The position numbers and the translations under genes were made by a program. The notes beneath the pieces were generated by a model that ran no database searches, had not been told where the DNA came from, and saw only the letters and a program-made list of their open reading frames with translations. From contig OY997593.1 of the NCBI GenBank assembly GCA_963921825.1, forward strand, positions 45,647,111 through 45,711,110: a DNA stretch of 64,000 nucleotides, given 5' to 3'. Shown one piece after another: positions 31,898 to 55,246 of the stretch; within the stretch, counting starts at the first letter, position 1; every line of letters starts with the position of its first letter. This DNA comes from Erodium maritimum. Lineage: Eukaryota; Streptophyta; Magnoliopsida; Geraniales; Geraniaceae.

Positions 31898-33554
31898 TCA
31901 GGCACATGATTCCTCCTATTACCGTTGTACTCATTCAACTCCTGTGTTCGAAGACGCTTTATGTTATTGTGTTTTGTTACGTTTGAATTTGATATCCGCT
32001 TAAATAATTACAAAATAACCATCCATGCCTCGGTTGTATTTAGGTCCAATATGGGTATGTAAATCGTGTGGTGAAATTTGTGGATATAGTGGATGCAGAT
32101 TCTGGATATGCAGATTCTGTATAAAATATAGATTTTATGTATAAAACATGTAGATTCTGGATATACAAGATGAAGATTATGGATATACATGATATAGTTT
32201 ATGGACATAAAAAGATGTATATTAGAAACTTTAGGAGATTAGATCTCCCAACTCCTCTTCGATGATAGCTCTGATCAATATTCAATCACATGCTGATAGC
32301 TCCGATCAATTTTCAATCTGTCAATATTCAAGATCATGTTACTAACTCCGATCAAACACGTGTTAAGTATCCAGGATACATTTCTTATTTTTTGATATAT
32401 AAGATACTGGTTTCTGCTAGTAACTTTAGCATAGAAGTTGATGATGTCATATACTACACGATGCTAGTATGCAAGAAACACAATAATTTGTAGGTACCAA
32501 AAAAACAACATCATAAATTTGATCCGAAAAGACTTTACATTGCCAATTAACAAATAGAACATACAACATCATAAATTTGATCCGAAAAGACTTTACATTG
32601 CCAATTAACAAATAGAACATATAATAATGTGTAACAAAATATAATCAGCAACTACAAAATAGAAGAGCCATAGTCTGTTTTAGGGACGATAACAAAAAGA
32701 ACCGAGTACACAAACGACTATTTTAAGGACGAAATAATGTACATGGTCTCTTTCGTTAGGGTGGCCACCAATTGTTTGTAGCGGCAATGAACCTCAATTT
32801 ATTTTCGCGTCCACTAGGATATGTCATGGCGTAACGCATCATCGTACATATCCCTGAAGTATATGTACCTTGTACTGGAATGTCTTCTCTTGCTCGAAAC
32901 GGAGCAAGTAACGGTTTTTGTGGTGATCATCATACATGCCCCTAATCAATGATTGTGGAATAATGATATTTTCCGATTCTGCGTTTGATAGGGAGGCCAT
33001 TGTTATTGGAGAAGTGGTTAATGTGGAGAAATAACAAATAGCAGCGGATAACACACAACACGGAACAATAATCAAAGTGCATGAAATATAAACAGAGACA
33101 ACGATATACGTGGTTCGGCAATATGCCTACATCCACGAGACAACAACGAGCTCCTTGTATTATCCGAGAAATAAACCGATAATTACAAGCCTAATTCTCT
33201 ATCTCTCAATATATGATGGCAACCAAGACAAGAATAAATATAAATAACCGTAGTCTTTGTTTTCCGGTTGACACTAGTTCTAAATGACGAGAATCTCTAA
33301 TTATAAGATAAAATAAGCATCAAACAAATTACCTTCCTTTTTGAACTTGTTTATGCCGAAAGCTTATCCATTAATTAGACCTTGCTAGCTTCTTCCCCAA
33401 CTTCATGCTAGTGTATCACACCAAGGGGCAATTAAATGCTCTTAATTGCAACAAGGACCACCCACTTGATTTGGTCATCTCTTTAACTAATAAAGATGCT
33501 ACGCCAAAACTTAAACCCAACCAAGTTTTGCTTTCCTTGATTTCCGCAGCTAAC
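31898..33554. other. AT-rich intergenic repeats
   Basis: No supported gene. 32041-32215 is a copy of the foldback arm found at 37843-38047 (AGGTCCAATATGGGTATGTA, then GATTCTGGATATACAAGA units). 32505-32620 is a 58-bp tandem duplication. 32970-33200 resembles a reverse copia LTR edge (GCAGCGGATAACACACAACA, ATACGTGGTTCGGCAATATG). The minus-strand ORF at 32839-33075 shows no family motif. Confidence 0.5.
32505..32620. repeat. 58-bp tandem duplication
   Basis: Two identical 58-bp units begin ACAACATCATAAATTTGATC (32505-32562 and 32563-32620). The absence of differences implies a recent duplication. Confidence 0.9.
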
Positions 33555-34005
33555 TGTCAGGACCTTGAATGCTAGCGGGCCGAAGAAGAAAGAGCTTGGG
33601 CCCAAGAGTCAAGGCCCACATGAAGTAATTAACACTGCTGGCCGAACGTCGTCGTTTCCCCAAGTACAAGGCATGTCTTCTTCAAGGAGCAGGTCTGGTC
33701 GGGACAAAGATGGAGTCGTGCCAAAAGGTTCAGAAGGTAGGGCTGTAATTGGATGCAGGCCTGAGGTTCACAGAGGGAACAAGATGCAGAGAAGAGGAGG
33801 GGACCATCTAGGTTAAGGTTGGTAGTATTTGTATTGTTAGGGTTTCGTTTTATGAGTTCATAGTGAAAGTTGTAAAGAGCCTTGGAGCAAGGTCAAGGGT
33901 CCAAGCTTGGGACTCATCTTTGTAACCTGATCTTAGTTTCATTTTCAATCAAAATTTACAGCAATTATAGCTTATATTTCAGTTGATTTTTATTGAATCC
34001 TGACA
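33555..34005 (+). repeat. 5' LTR of gene-carrying LTR retrotransposon (451 bp)
   Basis: It starts TGTCAGGACC and ends GAATCCTGACA, giving an 8-bp terminal inverted repeat TGTCAGGA/TCCTGACA. It is followed by one base and a tRNA-Met primer site. The first 161 bases are repeated at 37460-37620 with a single difference seen. The left flank is CTAAC. Confidence 0.95.
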
Positions 34006-34006
34006 C

Positions 34007-34019
34007 TGGTATCAGAGCC
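34007..34019 (+). other. Primer-binding site (tRNA-iMet)
   Basis: TGGTATCAGAGCC lies one base after the LTR end and is complementary to initiator tRNA-Met over 12 bases. Confidence 0.95.
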
Positions 34020-34034
34020 AACGATTCAGCGACC

Positions 34035-35600
34035 ATGGAGTTATCGGAGCTGATTTTGCAAATCTCATGGCTGGAAGAAGAGATCGAAAGTTGTGACCAA
34101 ATCTAGGAGGATTTGATTACACGTTTGGAGAAGAAGGAGGAGGAACTGGGAAGGATTCCATGGTGGCAGGAGACTCGACCTCTCAGAGCAGAGATGAATG
34201 CCATGGTCGATTGTATCAGCGAGTGGAGACAACGTGAGTATGAACTCAGGGGGGATTTGGAGGTCGAGAAGCAGCAACAAGCAAAAATGGAGGCTGTACT
34301 TAAAGCAAGGAGGGAAGCCGAACTAGAAGTAAAGAGGGAGACCGAACTCAGAACAAAAATGGAGGCTGAAATGGAAGCCAAATTGTTGGCTGAAATACAA
34401 GCAACAGTGAAAGCTGAAGCAGAAGAGAAGAAGCTACTCCAACACAAAATGGAAGGACTCATAAGCTTATTCAAAGAAGAAAATGCAACCATGGAAGTTG
34501 AGCCTAAGCCTGAACCTGATATTGTGCTTGAGGAAGCAGAGATGGCTTTCTTGATACAAGCAGAAGCAACAGAAGATGGGTATCAAATGCTTCTTATGGA
34601 TACTGGGAATGTGACTACTCACAATGTATATGAGGTATTTCTTATTCAATTCGAGTCATACCCTTTCAAGCTTGTTAAACAAATAAATGGAGTTATTATA
34701 TGGCCAACTGGTATTGGGGTTACTCTAAATCCTTATGGGTTATTCTGGTATGGGGATGTGAGGTATCACTTGAGGCAACGTGGGTATGTGTCAAGTTTCT
34801 ATTTTTCTGGGTGGTGCAATGTTGGTGCAAGTTGTAGGGGTGTTTATGCTATTCCTTGTGTAGCTTCTGGTTATAGAAAGTGGTTGACATCTAGGGAACC
34901 TGAAGAAGTTTTGAAAATAACGAGAGAGATGGTGTGTCTTGGTCAAAGAATTGTTGGATACATTTTGATTGATTTAATTAAGCTCCCTACTGGCTGTGGA
35001 AGAATGATGGTCAGGATGTTTAGTGAGCTGGGGTGGTTAGTTAGAAAAAAGAATAGGAGAGGTGATTTTGGGAACTTGATCATGAACAGAGATGTTGAAT
35101 TTTGGGCTTATAGTTTGATTAATGAACTGTTATATGGGATTGTTGGGAAGAGGCATGTTGATACTAAAAGTCTTGTGTTTGCTTGGAGTGAAGCAACAAT
35201 ATCTTTTGAGAATGCGAGGATTTTGGGTTGTCCCTCTGTTTTTGGAAAACTTCTTTATCTTTCCCTTATGAACATTGAGCGGGAGGTGCAGAACATAATG
35301 TTGCAATTTAGAGTCGCGCCTGATTTCTATTTATGTGGGTCTGAGAAGATAGAAAGGGAAGTTGGAGTGTTAGATGATGATGTAACTGTTGCCCAGGGTG
35401 TTATTATCGAGGGTGTGAAAGTTATTACACATGGCTCGAATCTTGTCCAAGTAGCTTGTGGGAATGCGATGATTTTTGGTAAATTCTCTGTTGTTGGGGT
35501 TTATGTTGGAATTGCGTTCCTTGGGCACAATACACTTAGCATGAGCAATATGGAAGCTGGTTTTGCTAGAGTTGAAGGTGGCTCTGGTTGTCAAAAATAA
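34035..35600 (+). pseudogene. First internal ORF of the gene-carrying element: coiled-coil head plus unidentified body
   Basis: The likely start ATG is 34035 (MELSELILQISWLEEEIES), with an in-frame TAG at 34104; the frame is then open from 34113 for 495 codons. Codons about 25-150 are a charged coiled coil (KMEAVLKARREAELEVKRET, KLLAEIQATVKAEAEEKKLL), as in N-termini of gag-like proteins of some plant LTR elements. The rest (VFLIQFESYPFKLVKQINGV, GRMMVRMFSELGWLVRKKNR, DDDVTVAQGVIIEGVKVITH) matches nothing I know. No zinc knuckle, protease or polymerase motif is present. It overlaps the next ORF by 13 bp in another frame. It may include further captured host sequence. Confidence 0.6.
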
Positions 35601-36110
35601 AGAAATGTGTTGTTGATCTTAACGAAGGTCATGGAAACCAAGCTGTCAGTAACAGGGAAAATGAGTTGGTGCATCTAGTGAAGGGAGGAAATGAGTTGTT
35701 CGAAATGGCTGTGGTGAAAGAGGTATTCTATGAGTTGTATGAGTGGCGGGAAATTCAGGAAAAATATGTGCAACTTGATAAAAATGTTGACGATTATGCT
35801 TTCTATGATTCAATTAAAGTCTCAATATTTATCAGAACCTTGGGCGTGAACCTTTATAAATTGGGGTGGCTGGGCAAGAAGGTTAAAGGGTATATGGATC
35901 ATTTTTCTTCCAAAGACGTGGGTACTGTTGAGCAGGTCTTTTGTGCCACATTGCAAGATCATTTTTGTGCGGCTGATGTGCTGGGTCGAGAAGGGTTATA
36001 TAAGGGGTTGAAGGTGGTTGGAAGCAGGTACTTGCATAAGAAGAATTGGAAGTTGTTGGGGAAGGACTGCTTTATGCAAACCTCTGCAAAGTTACCTTAT
36101 TTTGTGTGTA
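35588..36110 (+). pseudogene. Unidentified coding-like stretch upstream of captured PWP2
   Basis: First part of a 398-codon ORF, with VVKEVFYELYEWREIQEKYV and DSIKVSIFIRTLGVNLYKLG. Base composition and the open frame look coding, but I recognise no domain. It leads without a break into the PWP2-like part at about 36110, so it is either another captured exon set or the element's own sequence. Confidence 0.4.
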
Positions 36111-36735
36111 CTCACCTCTTAACAATACCAAAAGAGAAGCTCACTGCTGTAGTTTTTAATGAGGTTGGAAACGGGTTGACATTTGGTTGGGCAAAACTTT
36201 GCCAATTGCTTGTGTGGCAGTGGTGGCTAGTGAGGTACATACTGAAAAATTATTTTGATGTGAATCATCTCGCATCCTCGCCCGACTCACTACTCTTAGC
36301 AACTGAAGTTGATGATAGCAAATTCAAGGTTTGGACTGTATCCTTATGCTCTAGCTTTGTAACATTATATGAGCATGCTAAAATGGTCACAACTCTCCAT
36401 TACACTACTAATGGTAGTTGGCTCTTAAGTGCATCATTAGAGGGGACTAATTTTGCCTGGCAATTGTTCCGCTACAAATGGTTTAGAACAATTACTACCC
36501 ATATTTTTGGGCAAATTGTTATTCTGGCAGCAGACCCAAGTGGTGAAGGAAAATGTGCTGAAACTCTAGAGTCAATCGAGACGATTAATTGCTCGATGAA
36601 GATGGACCGTTGGTTGGATGTTCTTGGTGGCCAAGAAGGTCCTCATCATTGTCTCATGTTGTCTCTTACAGATAGAATTCTAGCTTCATCTTCTTGGGGC
36701 GAAGTTGTTCGATTATGGGAGCTGGGAAATCATGT
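36110..36735 (+). pseudogene. PWP2: Captured fragment of PWP2/UTP1 (periodic tryptophan protein 2)
   Basis: The frame reads IPKEKLTAVVFNEVGNGLTF, KLCQLLVWQWWLVRYILKNY, FDVNHLASSPDSLLLATEVD, DDSKFKVWTVSLCSSFVTLY, SLEGTNFAWQLFRYKWFRTI, ILAADPSGEGKCAETLESIE and LTDRILASSSWGEVVRLWEL. This follows plant PWP2, the WD40 scaffold of the UTP-B complex in the nucleolar small-subunit processome, from its QLLVWEWRSESYILKQ stretch to ASSSWDKTVRLWD. The piece covers about four WD repeats without introns, so it came from cDNA. Several conserved Trp and His positions are changed and the N- and C-termini are missing, so PWP2 function is not expected. Family recognition is from memory of conserved motifs. Confidence 0.75.
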
Positions 36736-37060
36736 CTTCACACTTATGATGTTACTGTGTTTGATGTTTCTACTGGTTCACTAAAGTGGAGAGTTGTTGG
36801 CTGCCATCTTGGAGGTGTTAGTTCCAATTCATTTTCAACATACAACTTATATATTTGCACTGCAGATGGGGAGATAATAGAAACTGCAGCAGGACAAATG
36901 ATGATTTTTAGTTGTTCAGATCACAACAAAATACAGACGTTTGCTGATCCACTTGGGGATGCTCGTTGCATGAGCTTTACTCAAGACGGAAAGTCCGTTG
37001 AAAGTGAGGAAGGAGATGATACTAGCATAGAAAATGAGTTGATCAGCTCCCTTAATGGTC
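36736..37060 (+). pseudogene. Captured fragment resembling UTP5/WDR43 (WD40 protein)
   Basis: Immediately after the PWP2 piece the homology changes and the frame shifts. It reads HTYDVTVFDVSTGSLKWRVV, GCHLGGVSSNSFSTYNLYIC, TADGEII, TAAGQMMIFSCSDHNKIQTF and DARCMSFTQDGKSV. These blocks follow the WD40 region of plant UTP5/WDR43 (LALDV-x-G-LKWR, CHPGGV, ATA-x-Q-x-K-x-FNCSD-x-KKIQKF, GVRC-x-x-FTEDGKY) with an internal deletion between them. UTP5 is a UTP-A (t-UTP) subunit of the same processome. The piece is intron-free. Confidence 0.6.
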
Positions 37061-37431
37061 CTCTCCTGCAAACAAGCCAACTCAAAGATAAGAAAAGGAG
37101 TAGGACCATGGGTTTGGAGACTGAAGGTCAAGTGGGTGAGTTGGTTTTGATTTGGTTCAAGAAGGAGTTTGCTGCAAAAGCTCTTGGGACAAAAGAAAAG
37201 GATACTGAAAGTGGTGGGTCTACTCAAGATTATATTCTAAGTGATGGAGCCAGTAATGGGATTAATTACTCAAGGCCAAAACGATTACAATGTGTACCGG
37301 ATATATGTATTCCAGCCAAGGATATATCTCAGGGCATAGTAGGACTTCGGAGTCGTGTGCTTTCTATTATTGAGATTGAACAAGTATTGTTTGGCCCAAC
37401 GCATTTCAAAGTGGAGTTTTTTCATACTTGA
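37061..37431 (+). pseudogene. C-terminal part of the third ORF, unidentified
   Basis: The frame of the UTP5-like piece stays open to 37431 through SSLNGPLLQTSQLKDKKRSR, LIWFKKEFAAKALGTKEKDT and DGASNGINYSRPKRLQCVPD. No domain is recognised. It ends 28 bp before the 3' LTR. The last bases read in another frame LRTSLFEGES, similar to the tail many plant gypsy polyproteins have just before the polypurine tract. Confidence 0.4.
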
Positions 37432-37445
37432 GGACAAGTCTGTTT

Positions 37446-37459
37446 GAAGGGGAGAGCAT
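37446..37459 (+). other. Polypurine tract of the gene-carrying element
   Basis: GAAGGGGAGAGCAT lies directly before the LTR start TGTCAGGACC. Confidence 0.85.
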
Positions 37460-37620
37460 TGTCAGGACCTTGAATGCTAGCGGGTCGAAGAAGAAAGAGC
37501 TTGGGCCCAAGAGTCAAGGCCCACATGAAGTAATTAACACTGCTGGCCGAACGTCGTCGTTTCCCCAAGTACAAGGCATGTCTTCTTCAAGGAGCAGGTC
37601 TGGTCGGGACAAAGATGGAG
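37460..37620 (+). repeat. 3' LTR fragment of the gene-carrying element (161 bp)
   Basis: It matches the first 161 bp of the 5' LTR with one visible difference (GGGTCG versus GGGCCG) and then stops at AAAGATGGAG, where unrelated A-rich sequence begins. The 3' LTR has therefore lost its last 290 bp. No right-hand TSD remains. Confidence 0.9.
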
Positions 37621-37842
37621 AAAAAGGAAAATTTGGACATATTATATTAGTAGAACGCGCCACTTGCCGCCTTCTGGACAAATGTCCATTTTTGGACAAA
37701 TTTATCAATTTAAACATTTCCGTTTCGTTTCAACTGCGATTTTCTTTGTTTTCGCACAAATGTTTTTGTTTTTCCAAGGGCTATCTGTCAAGATAAATAC
37801 TGAATATATTTTGAAGAACGGAAAAGCAAAGTAAAAATAGGT
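37621..37842. other. Unrecognised spacer
   Basis: AT-rich sequence with a short repeat pair (GGACAAATGTCC palindrome at 37677-37688). No gene or element is supported. Confidence 0.4.
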
Positions 37843-38800
37843 CCAATATAAGTATGTAAATTTGGGTTATGAAACTGTGGATATAGTCCATGTAGATTCT
37901 AGATATACAAGGTTTAGATACTACAAATATAGATTCTGGATAAAAAATGTAGATTCTGGGTATACAAGACATATATTTTGGATATACAAGATAGAGATTC
38001 TAGATATGCAAGATAAAGATTCTGGATATGTAAGATGTAGATTTAGGAAAAAGTTTCAACCCGAAATGGGTAATGAGCCCTCTTTGAAGACTTGAATCAT
38101 TCGTTTAGAAGCTCCAAAGATATTTTCTAATGGGTGCTCTAACTAGAAGAGAGTGATATCTTCATGCCGGTGGTCGGAACTCGCCGACACATCACCGGAA
38201 TTGGGGGTTGTGCCATCCCAAAGTTTGCTACCCCAAAAATATTGTTGTTGGAAAAAATTTCAACCAAAACTGGGTGATGAACCATTTTTGAAGCCTTAAA
38301 TCTTTCCTTTAGAAGATATAAAGATCTTGTCCAGTGGATTCTCGAGCTAGAAGAAAGTGATACCTTCACGCCTGGGTCGGAACTCGTCGAGACGTCATCG
38401 GAGTTGGGAGATCTACCCTCCCAAAGTTTGCTAATTTATATATATATTTTTTTCAGAATCTACATCTTGTATATCCAAAATCTAGAAATAGTATATCCAT
38501 AATCAACGTCTGGTATATCCAAAATCTACATTTTTTAAATCCATAATCTACATATCCAGAATATAAAACTTGTATATCAAGAATCTAAATCTTGTATGTC
38601 CAGATTCTACACCATATATCCAGAATCAAAATCTTATATATCAACAATCTAAATCTTGTATATCCAGAACCTACACCCAAAGTCTACATTTGATCTTGAA
38701 TAACAATGTGAGTACTTGTTATCATCAAAACAAACACAATGTGACATGTCCATAATCTACGCCTTCTATATCCAGAATCTACATTATGTATATCCATAAT
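37843..38800. mobile_element. Foldback-type element with (GATTCTGGATATACAA)n arms
   Basis: The left arm (37843-38047) is made of diverged units of TGTAGATTCTGGATATACAAG. The right arm (38452-38795) carries the reverse complement (CTTGTATATCCAGAATCTACA). The centre is two diverged direct copies of about 190 bp, starting AAAGTTTCAACCCGAAATGG and AAAATTTCAACCAAAACTGG; each contains AGAAG-x-GTGATA(C/T)CTTCA and TCGGAACTCG. Long arms of short repeats are the hallmark of foldback elements. A left-arm copy alone is at 32041-32215. No transposase is present. Confidence 0.65.
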
Positions 38801-45043: not shown

Positions 45044-47880
45044 TGTAAGAACCACTGCCGGTTAACGCCAGTCAAATCTGCGAAAAACAGGAAAATTTAA
45101 ATTTTTTGGACACACTTAAATGAACCTAAATTTGACCCCGAGGGTCATACCGGACTTAAGTTGACCCCGATATCTACCAAAGTGAGTTCCGGGGGACTCA
45201 GGGCAATTTTCTGACCAATTTGGGAAGGGTTGACTTTTTGCTGGGAAAGTCAACCGATCGACGTTTTGATCCATTCGAGGCTCGTTTTGGATCCAAAAAG
45301 CTTAGTCGTCGTCACAACGGTCTTAGTTGAGCCGTTTCCTTGTAGCCCGTGAAGTTTCGTAATTTCTTGGAAAAAGTGCCCGTTCGGGGCCCGAGACGGC
45401 CGAATTTCGCGAATCTGACTGAAAAATATCCAGAAGATATTTTCCAAAAGGTGTGGAACCCACCTGCCACATGTCAATTATGTGATGGTGTTAGGTTTCT
45501 TGAACAAAACAAATGATGATACTTGAGGGGTAGTTTGTAAATAGTTAAAGTTTTGATTTTTTAAACAAAAACAAAAGGGGAAAGGATGAGAGGTCTCGGC
45601 CATTAACAAAAAAGAGAGGAAATTAGAGATAGAAAGTGGAGAGAGGAAAGAGAAGGAGAAAAGGGAGAAAAGAGAAGGAAAGGGTTGGAGTTTTGGGATT
45701 TCCCGACAATCCGACCGACGGATCGTCTCAACGGTTGAAGAATCGAGCTCCCGTCGTCATTTCCTACGGTGAGAACCTAACCGGTTTTCATTTTGGATTG
45801 TTTGAATTTTTGGGTTTGAGTTTAAATGGTTTGATTAAGGTTGGGTTGAGGTTTGGGGTTCGTTAGGAACGTTTTGGGGCGAAAAGAAATGTTTTCCGGT
45901 GTGGCCGTGTGGGGCCCACATTTTCGGGCCTCAGGTTTTTCGTGTTCGGGTGGTTTAGGACGTTCTCCAAGTTGGAATTAAATTGTAAAAGTTGTAAATT
46001 GACGGGTTTAGAAACTTTAAGCGCGAATTAAATTGCTCGGAAGTCTAAAATTGATTCCGTCGATTGCGTGGGAACCCTTGAATTATTCTAAGACTGTAGA
46101 AACGAAAACGGGAACTTTCGGAGCCCCGGAAGGACGTTTTCAAAACCCGGGCAGATTCGCCATGTCGGGCGAATCGGGCTTTTCCGAGTCCATTATCGAC
46201 AATATCGAGTAATTTGGAAGTTTGGGAGTGATCGACATTGTCGGGGTTACTTTTGGGCGTCAAGTTTATTAAATTACAGTTTATGTCTGCGAACTTAAAA
46301 GTATTTAAATTGTGTTCTTATTAGATCGTGCCGCAGACAGAGGAAAGGGAAAGCTAGGCGAGTGATCGAGATCACGCCGGAGCTTGTTAGTGCGCTTTTG
46401 GAGAAATCATACGAGGTAGGGAAAAGTAGCCGGATCTCGGCCCTGACGAGGGAAAGTTAACAGTAGAAATGCATGTGACACCGGGGTGTCGTGGGTTAAG
46501 TAGGTTATCGAATATTAGAAAGGCAGGCGACACCGGGTGGTGTCGTATGATACGGGAACGTATCGAACAATAGAAATGCATGTGACACTTAGTAGTGTCG
46601 TAGGAGCAGTGAACTTTCGATATTAGAATTACTGGAGGCATTGGTTATGCCCGGAGGTTGATTGTTTAATTTGTGTCTTGGGTGGCAATGAGAGCCCGTA
46701 CTTTAATGTTTGTGTCTTGGGTGGCCATGAGAGCCCATACTTTAATGTTTGTGTCTTGGGTGGCCATGAGAGCCCGTATTTTACTGCTGTGTCTTGGGTG
46801 GCCATGAGAGCCCGTGTCTTTACTGTTGGTGTCTTGGGTGGCCATGAGTGCCCGTGGGGTTGTTGAACCCGTGTCTTTACTTTTGGTGTTTGGGTGGCCT
46901 TGAGTGCCCGTGGGGTTGTTGAACCCGTGTTTTACCATTGGTGTTTTGGGTGGTCGTGAGTGCCCGTGGGGTTGTTGAGCCCGTGTCTTTACTGTTGGTG
47001 TGTCTTGGGTGGCCATGAGTGCCTGTGGAGTGTTGGACCGGTGTTGTTGCTGTTTGTTGAACTTTGGTTGTGATTGTGATTGTGGTTACCTGAGGTTGGG
47101 GGCCCGCTTCATGAAACAGGGGTCTTGTGATCGCACGCGTCTGCATGTTCATACGGGGTAGGGGGCCCGCCCGTGAGGAAAGGGGTCCTAGCCGCACGTG
47201 CGTGGTTAGGGGTGACAGGTCGACAGCCTGATCCGACTTTGTGTCGGGAAAAGTGCGACAGGTTGACCGCCTGGCCTGACAGGGATCGATAAAGGGCGTG
47301 AGGGTTACTGAGCAGTTGGAGTGCGATCCTTTGTGATCTTGTTTGGTGTGCGATCCTTAGTGATCTTGGGTGTTGCGTGGTTATCTGTCGTGTCTTTGGA
47401 GGAAGTCGTCAATCGTTGTGTCGGGTCTACATTACGGGTCCGAGTGTTGAGTCGGTTGAGAAAAGTAATAGTCGTGTGTCAGTCGGGTTACTTGAGTTTG
47501 GGGATAGTAGTCCCGATGTTTGGAATGTTGTTGGTGTTACCGGCATTGTCTGCTAAGTATGCCGTAGTCAGTCTATTATCCGTGGTGGTGAGCGAACGCT
47601 CACCCCTAGCTGCTTTTCCTATAGGTACTGGTCGCGGGACGGACTAGGTGGGCTTCCTAAGGTTGAAGAGCTAGGAGCGGGAGTCCGGGTTTACTTTTGA
47701 GTCTAGCGACGTATGCCTTGCTTTTTGTCCGCTTGTTGGGACGTGCTTTTGAGTTGTAAATAATTATTTTGATTAAGTACTTGATGGTTTTAAAGTGATT
47801 TATTTAAAAGGATTAAAAATGTTTTATTGTTTTAAACGTTCGCATTCCGAGTTCGGTTCTACTGAATTTAGGGCGTGACA
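45044..47880 (+). repeat. 5' LTR of full-length gypsy element (2837 bp)
   Basis: TGTAAGAACC ... GGGCGTGACA. It has the same length as the 3' LTR (52410-55246). The TSD CCAAA (45039-45043 and 55247-55251) is perfect. It contains the GA-rich leader (45605-45665), the donor-like CTACG|GTGAGAACC (45764-45777), minisatellites (46672-47025), the hairpin (47587-47604) and TTTTCCTATAG. LTR-LTR differences are clustered: about ten in the first 175 bp by eye, few elsewhere. Confidence 0.95.
46672..47025 (+). repeat. LTR minisatellite array in 5' LTR
   Basis: Eight or so units carry GTGTCTTGGGTGGCCATGAG, first with AGCCCGTA(C/T)TTTA ends and then with GGGGTTGTTGAACCCGTG. It is matched unit for unit by 54040-54395 in the 3' LTR, as expected if both came from one template. 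Confidence 0.85.
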
Positions 47881-52409: not shown

Positions 52410-55246
52410 TGTAAGAACCACTCCCGGTCAACGCCAGTCAAATCTGCGAAAAACAGGAAAATTTAAAATTTCTGGACACACTTAAATGAACCTAAATTTG
52501 ACCCCGAGGGTCATACCGGACATAAGTTGACCCCGATATCGACTAAACTGAGTTCCGGGGGACTCGGGGCAACTTTCTGACCAATTTGGGAAATGTTGAC
52601 TTTTTGCTGGGAAAGTCAACCGAGCGACGTTTTGGTCCATTCGAGGCTCGTTTTGGATCCAAAAAGATTATCCGTCGTCACAGCGGTCTTAGTTGAGCTG
52701 TTTCCTTGTAGCCCGTGAAGTTTCGTAATTTCTTGGAAAAAGTGCCCGTTCGGAGCCCGAGACGGCCGAATTTCGCGAATCTGACTGAAAAATATCTAGA
52801 TGATATTTTCCAAAAGGTGTGGGACCCACTTGCCACATGTCAATTATGTGGTGGTGTTAGGTTTCTTGAACAAAACAAATGATGAGACTTGAGGGGTAGT
52901 TTGTAAATAGTTAATGTTTTGATTTTTTAAACAAAAACAAAAGGGGAAAGGATGAGAGGTCTCGGCCATTAACAAAAAAATAGAGGAAATTAGAGATAGA
53001 AAGTGGAGAGAGGAAAGAGAAGGAGAAAAGGGAGAAAAGAGAAGGAAATGGTTGGAGTTTTGGGATTTCCCGACAATCCGACCGACGGATCGTCTCAACG
53101 GTTGAAGAATCGAGCTCCCGTCGTCATTTCCTACGGTGAGAACCTAACCGGTTTTCATTTTGGATTGTTTGAATTTTTGGGTTTGAGTTTAAATGGTTTG
53201 ATTAAGGTTGGGTTGAGGTTTGGGGTTCGTTAGGAACGTTTTGGGGCGAAAAGAAATGTTTTCCGGTGTGGCCGTGTGGGACCCACGTTTTCGGGCCTCG
53301 GGTTTTTCGTGTTCGGGTGGTTTAGGACGTTCTCCAAGTTGGAATTAAATTGTAAAAGTTGTAAATTAACGGGTTTAGAAACTTTAAACGCGAATTAAAT
53401 TGCTCGGAAGTTGGAAATTGATTCCGTCGATTGCGTTGGAACCCTTGAATTATTCTTAGACCGTAGAAACGAAAACGGGAACTTTCGGAGCCCCGGAAGG
53501 ACGTTTTCAAAACCCGGGCAGATTCGCCATGTCGGGCGAATCGGGCTTTTCCGAGTCCATTAGCGACAATGTCGAGTAATTGGGAAGTTTGGGAGTGATC
53601 GACATTGTCGGGGTTACTTTTGGGCGTCAAGTTTATTAAATTCCAGTTTATGTATGCGAACTTAAAAGTATTTAAATTGTGTTCTTATTAGATCGTGTCG
53701 CAGACAGAGGAAAGGTAAAGCTAGGCGAGTGATCGAGATCACCCCAGAGCTTGTTAGTGCGCTTTTGGAGAAAGCATACGAGGTAGGGAAAAGTAGCCGG
53801 ATCTCGGCCCTGATGAGGGAAAGTTAACAGTAGAAATGCATGTGACACCGGGGTGTCGTGGGTTAAGTAGGTTATTGAATATTAGAAAGGCAGGCGACAC
53901 CGGGTGGTGTCGTATGATACGGGAACGTATCGAACAATAGAATTGCATGTGACACTTAGTAGTCTCGTAGGAGCAGTGAACTTTCGATATTAGAATTACT
54001 GGAGGCATTGGTTATGCCCGGAGGTTGATTGTTTAATTTGAGTCTTGGGTGGCCATGAGAGCCTGTACTTTAATGTTTGTGTCTTGGGTGGCCATGAGAG
54101 CCCGTACTTTAATGTTTGTGTCTTGGGTGGCCATGAGAGCCCGTATTTTACTGCTGTGTCTTGGGTGGCCATGAGAGCCCGTGTCTTTACTGTTGGTGTC
54201 TTGGGTGGCCATGAGTGCCCGTGGGGTTGTTGAACCCGTGTCTTTACTTTTGGTGTTTGGGTGGCCTTGAGTGCCCGTGAGGTTGTTGAACCCTTGTTTT
54301 ACTGTTGGTGTTTTGGGTGGCCGTGAGTGCCCGTGGGGTTGTTGAACCCGTGTCTTTACTGTTGGTGTGTCTTGGGTGGCCATGAGTGCATGTGGAGTGT
54401 TGGACCAGTGTTGTTGCTGTTTGTTGAACTTTGGTTGTGATTGTGATTGTGGTTACCTGAGGTTGGGGGCCCGCTTCATGAAACGGGGGTCTTGTGATCG
54501 CACGCGTCTGCATGTTCAGACGGGGTAAGGGGCCTGCCCGTGAGTAAGGGGTCCTGGCCGCGCGTGCGTGGTTAGGGGTGACAGGTCGACAGCCTGATCC
54601 GACTTTGTGTCGGGAAAAGTGCGACATGTCGACCGCCTGACCTAACAGGGATCGGTAAAGGGCGTGGGGGTTACTGAGCAGTTGGAGTGCGATCCTTTGT
54701 GATCTTGTTTGGTGTGCGATCCTTAGTGATCTTGGGTGTTGCGTGGTTATCTGTCGTGTCTTTGGAGGAAGTCGTCAATCGTTGTGTCGGGTCTACATTA
54801 CGGGTCCGAGTGTTGAGTCGGTTGAGAAAAGTAACAGTCGTGTGTCAGTCGGGTTAGTTGAGTTTGGGGATAGTAGTCCCGGTGTTTGGAATGTTGTTGA
54901 TGTTACCAGCATTGTCAGCTAAGTGTGCCGTAGTCAGTTTGTTATCCGTGGTGGTGAGCGAACGCTCACCCCTTGCTGCTTTTCCTACAGGTACTGGTCG
55001 CGGGACGGACTAGGTGGGCTTCCGAAGCTTGAAGAGCTAGGAGCGGGAGTCCGGGTTTACTTTTGAGTCTAGCGACGTATGCCTTGCTTTTTGTCCGCTT
55101 GTTGGGACGTGCTTTTGAGTTGTAAATAATTATTTTGATTAAGTACTTGATGGTTTTAAAGTGATTTATTTAAAAGGATTAAAAATGTTTTATTGTTTTA
55201 AACGTTCGCGTTCCGAGTTCGGTTCTACTGAATTTGGGGCGTGACA
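52410..55246 (+). repeat. 3' LTR of full-length gypsy element (2837 bp)
   Basis: It starts TGTAAGAACCACTCCCGGTC right after GGGGGTAGAT and ends GGGGCGTGACA, followed by the TSD CCAAA. Its hairpin is at 54953-54970, minisatellite at 54040-54395 and donor-like site at 53131-53144. Confidence 0.95.

Follow-up and report, generated by a model that had tools for sequence, protein, structure and literature searches.

An LTR retrotransposon of Erodium maritimum carrying spliced fragments of four or more unrelated host genes

Anatomy of the element

The stretch of DNA analysed here (the window) comprises 64,000 nucleotides of the Erodium maritimum genome (GenBank assembly GCA_963921825.1, contig OY997593.1, positions 45,647,111 to 45,711,110 of the forward strand). 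Between window positions 33555 and 37620 lies a long terminal repeat (LTR) retrotransposon that carries pieces of four or more unrelated host genes, namely GCP3, PWP2, a UTP5-like gene and RAPTOR, spliced and in sense orientation (Table 1). The element is bounded by a 161-bp direct repeat (33555-33715 and 37460-37620) with 1 mismatch in 161. A preliminary description of the locus had proposed an LTR pair; the direct repeat was confirmed, but of the two LTRs only the 5' one has its full 451 bp, the other being cut down to 161 bp. As the LTRs differ at only 1 of 161 sites, the insertion is young. The primer binding site, which we take to be of the initiator-methionine tRNA type, and the polypurine tract could both be read from the sequence, as in the preliminary description.

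The element is non-autonomous: Pfam scans of its three main open reading frames (ORFs) found no pol family, in agreement with the earlier view of the interior, and no match to a Ty3/gypsy chromovirus reverse transcriptase or integrase. A plasmid search gave no match. The core shared with related elements might have a gag-like role. The interior of the window copy contains one stop and several frame changes.

Table 1. Position and supporting matches of the features of the element, in window coordinates
Feature	Position	Strand	Observation
5' LTR	33555..34005	+	451 bp, TGTCAGGACC...CCTGACA; TG...CA ends; repeat with 37460-37620
Primer binding site	34007..34019	+	TGGTATCAGAGCC; read from the sequence
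Family core	34107..34772	+	N-terminal frame, K/E-rich, coiled-coil-like, common to the family; stop just upstream
Mosaic module	34690..35050	+	90-91% identical to L033, L034, L035; core versus these 72-83%
First GCP3-derived piece	34950..35047	+	Nearest GCP3 gene L028; blastn 75.5%, tblastn E 3.6e-7
Plant mobile domain-like stretch	35118..35294	+	PF10536 E 0.0018, 18 bits, below cut-off of 34.9
Second GCP3-derived piece	35663..35959	+	Nearest GCP3 gene L027; PDB GCP3 E 5.3e-6; blastn 73.5%
PWP2-derived piece	36022..36753	+	PDB phmmer E 3.2e-42; two genomic parents
PWP2/UTP5 junction	36747..36755	+	PWP2 and UTP5 homologies meet
UTP5/WDR43-like piece	36747..37128	+	Several exons; introns and internal stretches missing; parents L059, L060
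RAPTOR-derived piece	37234..37400 (about)	+	blastn and tblastn to L058, L062
Polypurine tract	37446..37458	+	Read from the sequence
Truncated 3' LTR	37460..37620	+	First 161 bp only; remainder and CA end absent from window

Host-gene cargo and its parents

One piece derives from PWP2. Its parents are two intron-bearing genes of the same genome, on contigs C4 and C6, to which it is 75-78% identical; the nearer parent differs at 140 of 693 sites. The piece follows the parental exons and lacks three parental introns, which bears out the intron-free WD40 sequence reported earlier. Two deletions, of 78 nt and 9 nt, are in frame, while one of 19 nt changes the frame. The identification as PWP2 stood, and only its extent, earlier given as 36110-36735, had to be widened.

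The adjoining piece has its parents at L059 and L060 in the same genome, on C4 and C2, so that parents sought for both genes named in the preliminary description were found; the UTP5-like assignment was sound, and the piece extends to 37128. Downstream in L060 lies a Utp12 domain (47.2 bits, cut-off 31.5). PDB searches with the piece returned only Utp4 and generic matches, and the spliced parent matched generic WD40 proteins first. Because these matches are generic, the choice of UTP5/WDR43 over another WD40-Utp12 protein is an assumption on our part, based on the Utp12 domain of L060.

The remaining cargo had been overlooked. Two GCP3-derived pieces, a RAPTOR-derived piece and a weak plant mobile domain (PMD)-like stretch accompany the two genes that the preliminary description had recognised. 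Each GCP3 piece is nearest a different one of two genes on C7, L027 and L028, which are presumably GCP3, as judged by their similarity to the piece in the window. Both genes are open over the stretch examined (757 and 790 aa) and have no intron within it. A PDB search with the first piece alone (34860-35078) found no match. The RAPTOR parent L058 lies on C3 and was identified through PDB (E 8.5e-22); a similar stretch is present on C5. The plant mobile domain is clearer in relatives of the element (68.3 bits in L033, 44.5 bits in L017). The stretch 34617-35597 had no match in PDB. Searches of a large protein database yielded no useful relative: two queries had no match, and one gave 17 matches of WD40-type domains, of which the named ones were bacterial. 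Between the assigned pieces lie the stretches 35960-36021 and 37129-37233.

The absent introns, together with the LTRs and the primer site, show that capture took an RNA route. A processed pseudogene, that is, a single-gene cDNA without LTRs, was ruled out by the LTR-bounded mosaic of several genes, and chance similarity by the location of parents in the same genome.

The junction between PWP2 and the UTP5-like piece offers a closer view of the capture. The homologies meet close to position 36736, at which the preliminary description had put the switch. At the meeting point the UTP5-like parent shares a 9-nt word with the PWP2 gene on C4 and an 8-nt word with that on C6, in the same codon phase; 7 of the 9 letters are still present in the element. 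Shared runs of at least 8 nt occur at random breaks with a frequency of 0.0003. A shared parental word of this length is consistent with template switching. The earlier proposal of host cDNA capture with template switching therefore agrees with the missing introns and with the junction word. PWP2 adjoins UTP5 at three or more other loci (L021, L022 and L054), indicating that the fusion is older than the insertion in the window. The LTR anatomy, the host parents, the absent introns and this one microhomology junction are the observations from which an element family collecting host cDNA can be argued.

A family of mosaic elements

Relatives were sought across the 763 Mb (40 contigs) of the host genome, and statements on copies rest on an LTR search and on protein searches. 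The LTR search, proposed in the preliminary description as a way to find further copies, found no near-identical LTR elsewhere among the 40 of 55 candidates scored; within the same set the next best LTR reached 87% over 270 bases. The first ORF (ORF1) gave 112 matches; counting the window, they fall at 59 places separated by more than 8 kb. The elements have LTRs and the N-terminal core in common, while their cargo differs and is shuffled. In the window element, the greater identity of the module than of the core to the same three loci (Table 1) reveals a mosaic boundary. LTR pairs are 91.5-98.8% identical in L009, L013, L014, L016 and L017 and 94.5% in L072. Perfect 5-bp target duplications flank L013 and L017, two of six elements examined, L009 and L072 being without clean LTR ends. 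No LTR pair was visible in the stretches examined for L041, L046 and L049. A side observation concerns G000:C6:35497353-35523951, where eleven family-core matches are spaced by 2,659-2,660 bases in a tandem array, seemingly derived from a family element.

The cargo of the relatives is diverse. A host domain other than PMD scored above the Pfam cut-off in 6 of 10 other family loci, and two different ones did so in five. These domains are iPGM in L041, CDC45 and ThiF in L049, RPN1 and eEF1A in L009, DUF7477 and Nup96 in L017, AICARFT and cullin in L014, and E1 FCCH and cullin in L072. Of the other four loci, L046 has a kinase below the cut-off, L033 PMD only and L013 no host domain, while L016 holds PWP2 by alignment with a Pfam score below the cut-off. 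GCP3 pieces recur in L009, L014, L022, L033, L034, L035 and L072. The apparent parent of one L041 cargo piece, L075 (G000:C8:267400-267920), sits in a 1,143-aa reading frame.

This inventory bears on the explanation first offered for the window, that two ribosome-biogenesis cDNAs were caught together through their shared pathway and act back, by way of small RNAs, on the genes they came from. PWP2 and the UTP5-like gene are indeed adjacent and both in sense. However, GCP3, present twice, and RAPTOR ride in the same element and are unrelated, and the relatives hold unrelated housekeeping genes, so the one-pathway reading fails and pathway-linked capture was rejected. Further, an identity of 75-78% to the PWP2 parents is low for small-RNA pairing. 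We regard this explanation as a whole as highly improbable.

Reading frames and selection

Sense ORFs of at least 80 aa cover 0.62-1.00 of seven family interiors, compared with 0.28-0.62 for antisense ORFs. In L072 a single frame of 1208 aa spans from one LTR into the other, despite LTRs only 94.5% identical. Because L041, L046, L049 and L072 were picked for their long open frames, their openness is weak evidence. In the interior of the window element, the other frames contain 9-42 stops per stretch; the open frames are therefore not a matter of base composition alone.

Core and PWP2 cargo evolve differently. In all 19 element-to-element comparisons the core (ORF1 residues 1-222) had a ratio of nonsynonymous to synonymous substitution rates (dN/dS) of 0.29-0.57, a set in which one element is counted twice (L046, L051) and some dS values are near or above 0.9. 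For cargo compared between elements, dN/dS was 0.80-1.19 for PWP2 (5 comparisons) and 0.79-0.88 for UTP5/RAPTOR (3 comparisons). On the element branch, PWP2 changes fall on 43 of 221, 43 of 226 and 27 of 182 sites at the first, second and third codon positions. Yet a polarised test found no stop along this branch against an expectation of 5.6 (P 0.003). The UTP5 piece of the window has likewise none where 3.4 were expected (P 0.03). PWP2 cargo thus changes at near-neutral amino-acid rates yet without stops, and other cargo is more constrained.

Summed over the pieces so compared, about 61 stops were expected and 6 seen, the rows sharing ancestry and not being independent; the sum takes one parent per cargo (the nearest where two were tried), leaves out L053 and L056 as repeats of L022 and L021, and omits L022 UTP5 (12.6 expected, 1 seen) for a doubtful second alignment stretch. 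The relatives tend the same way as the window element, with exceptions: stops were seen in PWP2 of L022 (3 versus 5.9 expected) and of L031 (1 versus 3.0), in GCP3 of L022 (1 versus 1.7) and in UTP5 of L021 (1 versus 3.0).

One explanation for such frames is accidental transduction, in which host cDNA was caught by chance and the frames remain open since too little time has elapsed. The near-identical LTRs of a young insertion are in its favour, as are the stop and frame changes in the window copy and the stops in relatives. It is nevertheless unlikely, since the cargo is old, as judged by its divergence from the nearer PWP2 parent and by the PWP2-UTP5 pair common to three further loci, and since the polarised test found no stop in PWP2. 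A second explanation, that the joined fragments code for a functional fusion protein under protein-level selection, could draw on the sense ORF coverage and on the lower dN/dS values given below for ORF1 residues 223-315 and for the L049/L065 cargo. We consider it more doubtful still: changes in PWP2 show no concentration at third codon positions, its dN/dS between elements is near one, and the pieces cover domains only in part and have deletions within them. For PWP2/UTP5 in particular, a working fusion was rejected on the near-neutral codon pattern.

Probable collection of host cDNA into open frames

The elements probably belong to a family of non-autonomous LTR retrotransposons that gather host cDNA and build long open frames from it. 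In favour of this reading are modules that are both shared and shuffled, a core under constraint beside PWP2 cargo that changes almost neutrally, and fewer stops in the cargo than expected. The reverse transcriptase would be supplied by a partner element, perhaps of the chromo-type Ty3/gypsy group. It could jump from element RNA to co-packaged spliced host mRNAs at short identical words, and may also switch among element RNAs. Sense-strand runs of exons would thereby be placed between the conserved 5' core and the 3' end. If products with open frames spread, lineages would turn into long mosaic reading frames. As the reason for the open frames we favour escape from nonsense-mediated decay, a fate that a 4-kb RNA would risk if it contained an early stop.

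One further step, which we advance tentatively and do not expect to be the most probable outcome, is that host cDNA serves as stop-free filler: selection would hold the frame open towards the 3' LTR, for instance as a way round nonsense-mediated decay, while the amino acids matter little. If true, the family would be a continuing machine fusing exons of unrelated genes. The constrained core, the near-neutral PWP2 cargo and the missing stops, set against one another, provide a direct test of selection for the open frame itself. With ORF1 matches spread over 59 places, this family seems to capture several genes and shuffle its modules habitually.

Several points weigh against the collection of host cDNA into selected open frames. 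A single capture junction is placed to the base. The cargo is in part more constrained than PWP2, with dN/dS of 0.45-0.70 for ORF1 residues 223-315, where the first GCP3 piece lies (3 comparisons), 0.48-0.88 for residues 316-497 (4 comparisons) and 0.55 for the L049/L065 cargo. Taken singly, the window GCP3 (2.5 stops expected, none seen, P 0.07) and RAPTOR pieces (1.4 expected, none seen, P 0.24) are not significant, and the 6 stops in the summed rows all belong to relatives. Outside PWP2, the numbers of stops expected also count changes on the parental branch, which makes them somewhat high, and tblastn is biased towards open matches. The finding of cargo in sense only comes largely from sense ORFs, with seven antisense ORFs scanned, none of which gave a Pfam match. 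In L009 the ORF coverage is nearly equal on both strands (sense 0.69, antisense 0.62). Finally, L015 is a possible partner, as a candidate only.

At this locus (L015:459-4493), a degenerate Ty3/gypsy-like element shows a Tf2-type SH3 match and, below the cut-off, a chromo match. Its LTR is 69% similar over 378 bases.

Comparison with known systems

Pack-MULEs and gene-capturing Helitrons assemble fragments of several host genes, and both are DNA transposons. The assembly of multiple host-gene fragments is shared with the present family, in which, however, the LTRs, the primer site and the absent introns demonstrate an RNA route.

Among LTR elements, Bs1 of maize is described as holding segments of ATPase, xylan endohydrolase and beta-1,3-glucanase genes that form a chimeric gene (PMC13317346). 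The resemblance lies in an LTR element with several host-gene segments, and the several spliced host genes in sense that mark the Bs1 type are found here in the GCP3, PWP2, UTP5-like and RAPTOR pieces. Here, in contrast, one copy carries at least four host genes, 5 of 10 other loci hold two or more different ones and the modules are shuffled.

Host-gene pieces within LTR elements of maize, rice and sorghum are usually in sense, as are those described here (PMC7264820). A maize survey counted 425 elements that hold gene fragments and no fewer than 189 captures; under the conditions it set, none held pieces of more than one standard nuclear gene (PMC2774510). Single capture there differs from the multi-gene capture of the present family. 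PMD was the commonest atypical domain of plant Gypsy elements (PMC9289625). A PMD-like stretch within an LTR element is common to both cases, but here pol is missing and PMD is just one of several modules. No description of a comparable family was found in the literature searched, whose coverage left out most subscription journals.

Other repeats in the window

The element is flanked on both sides by a repeat (32041-32194 and 37838-37993, 79% similar), and related stretches recur to about 38.7 kb. Many further direct and inverted repeats occur between 1 and 31 kb. A 2.8-kb segment is duplicated at 45044-47880 and 52410-55246, with 96.6% identity, 7.4 kb apart.

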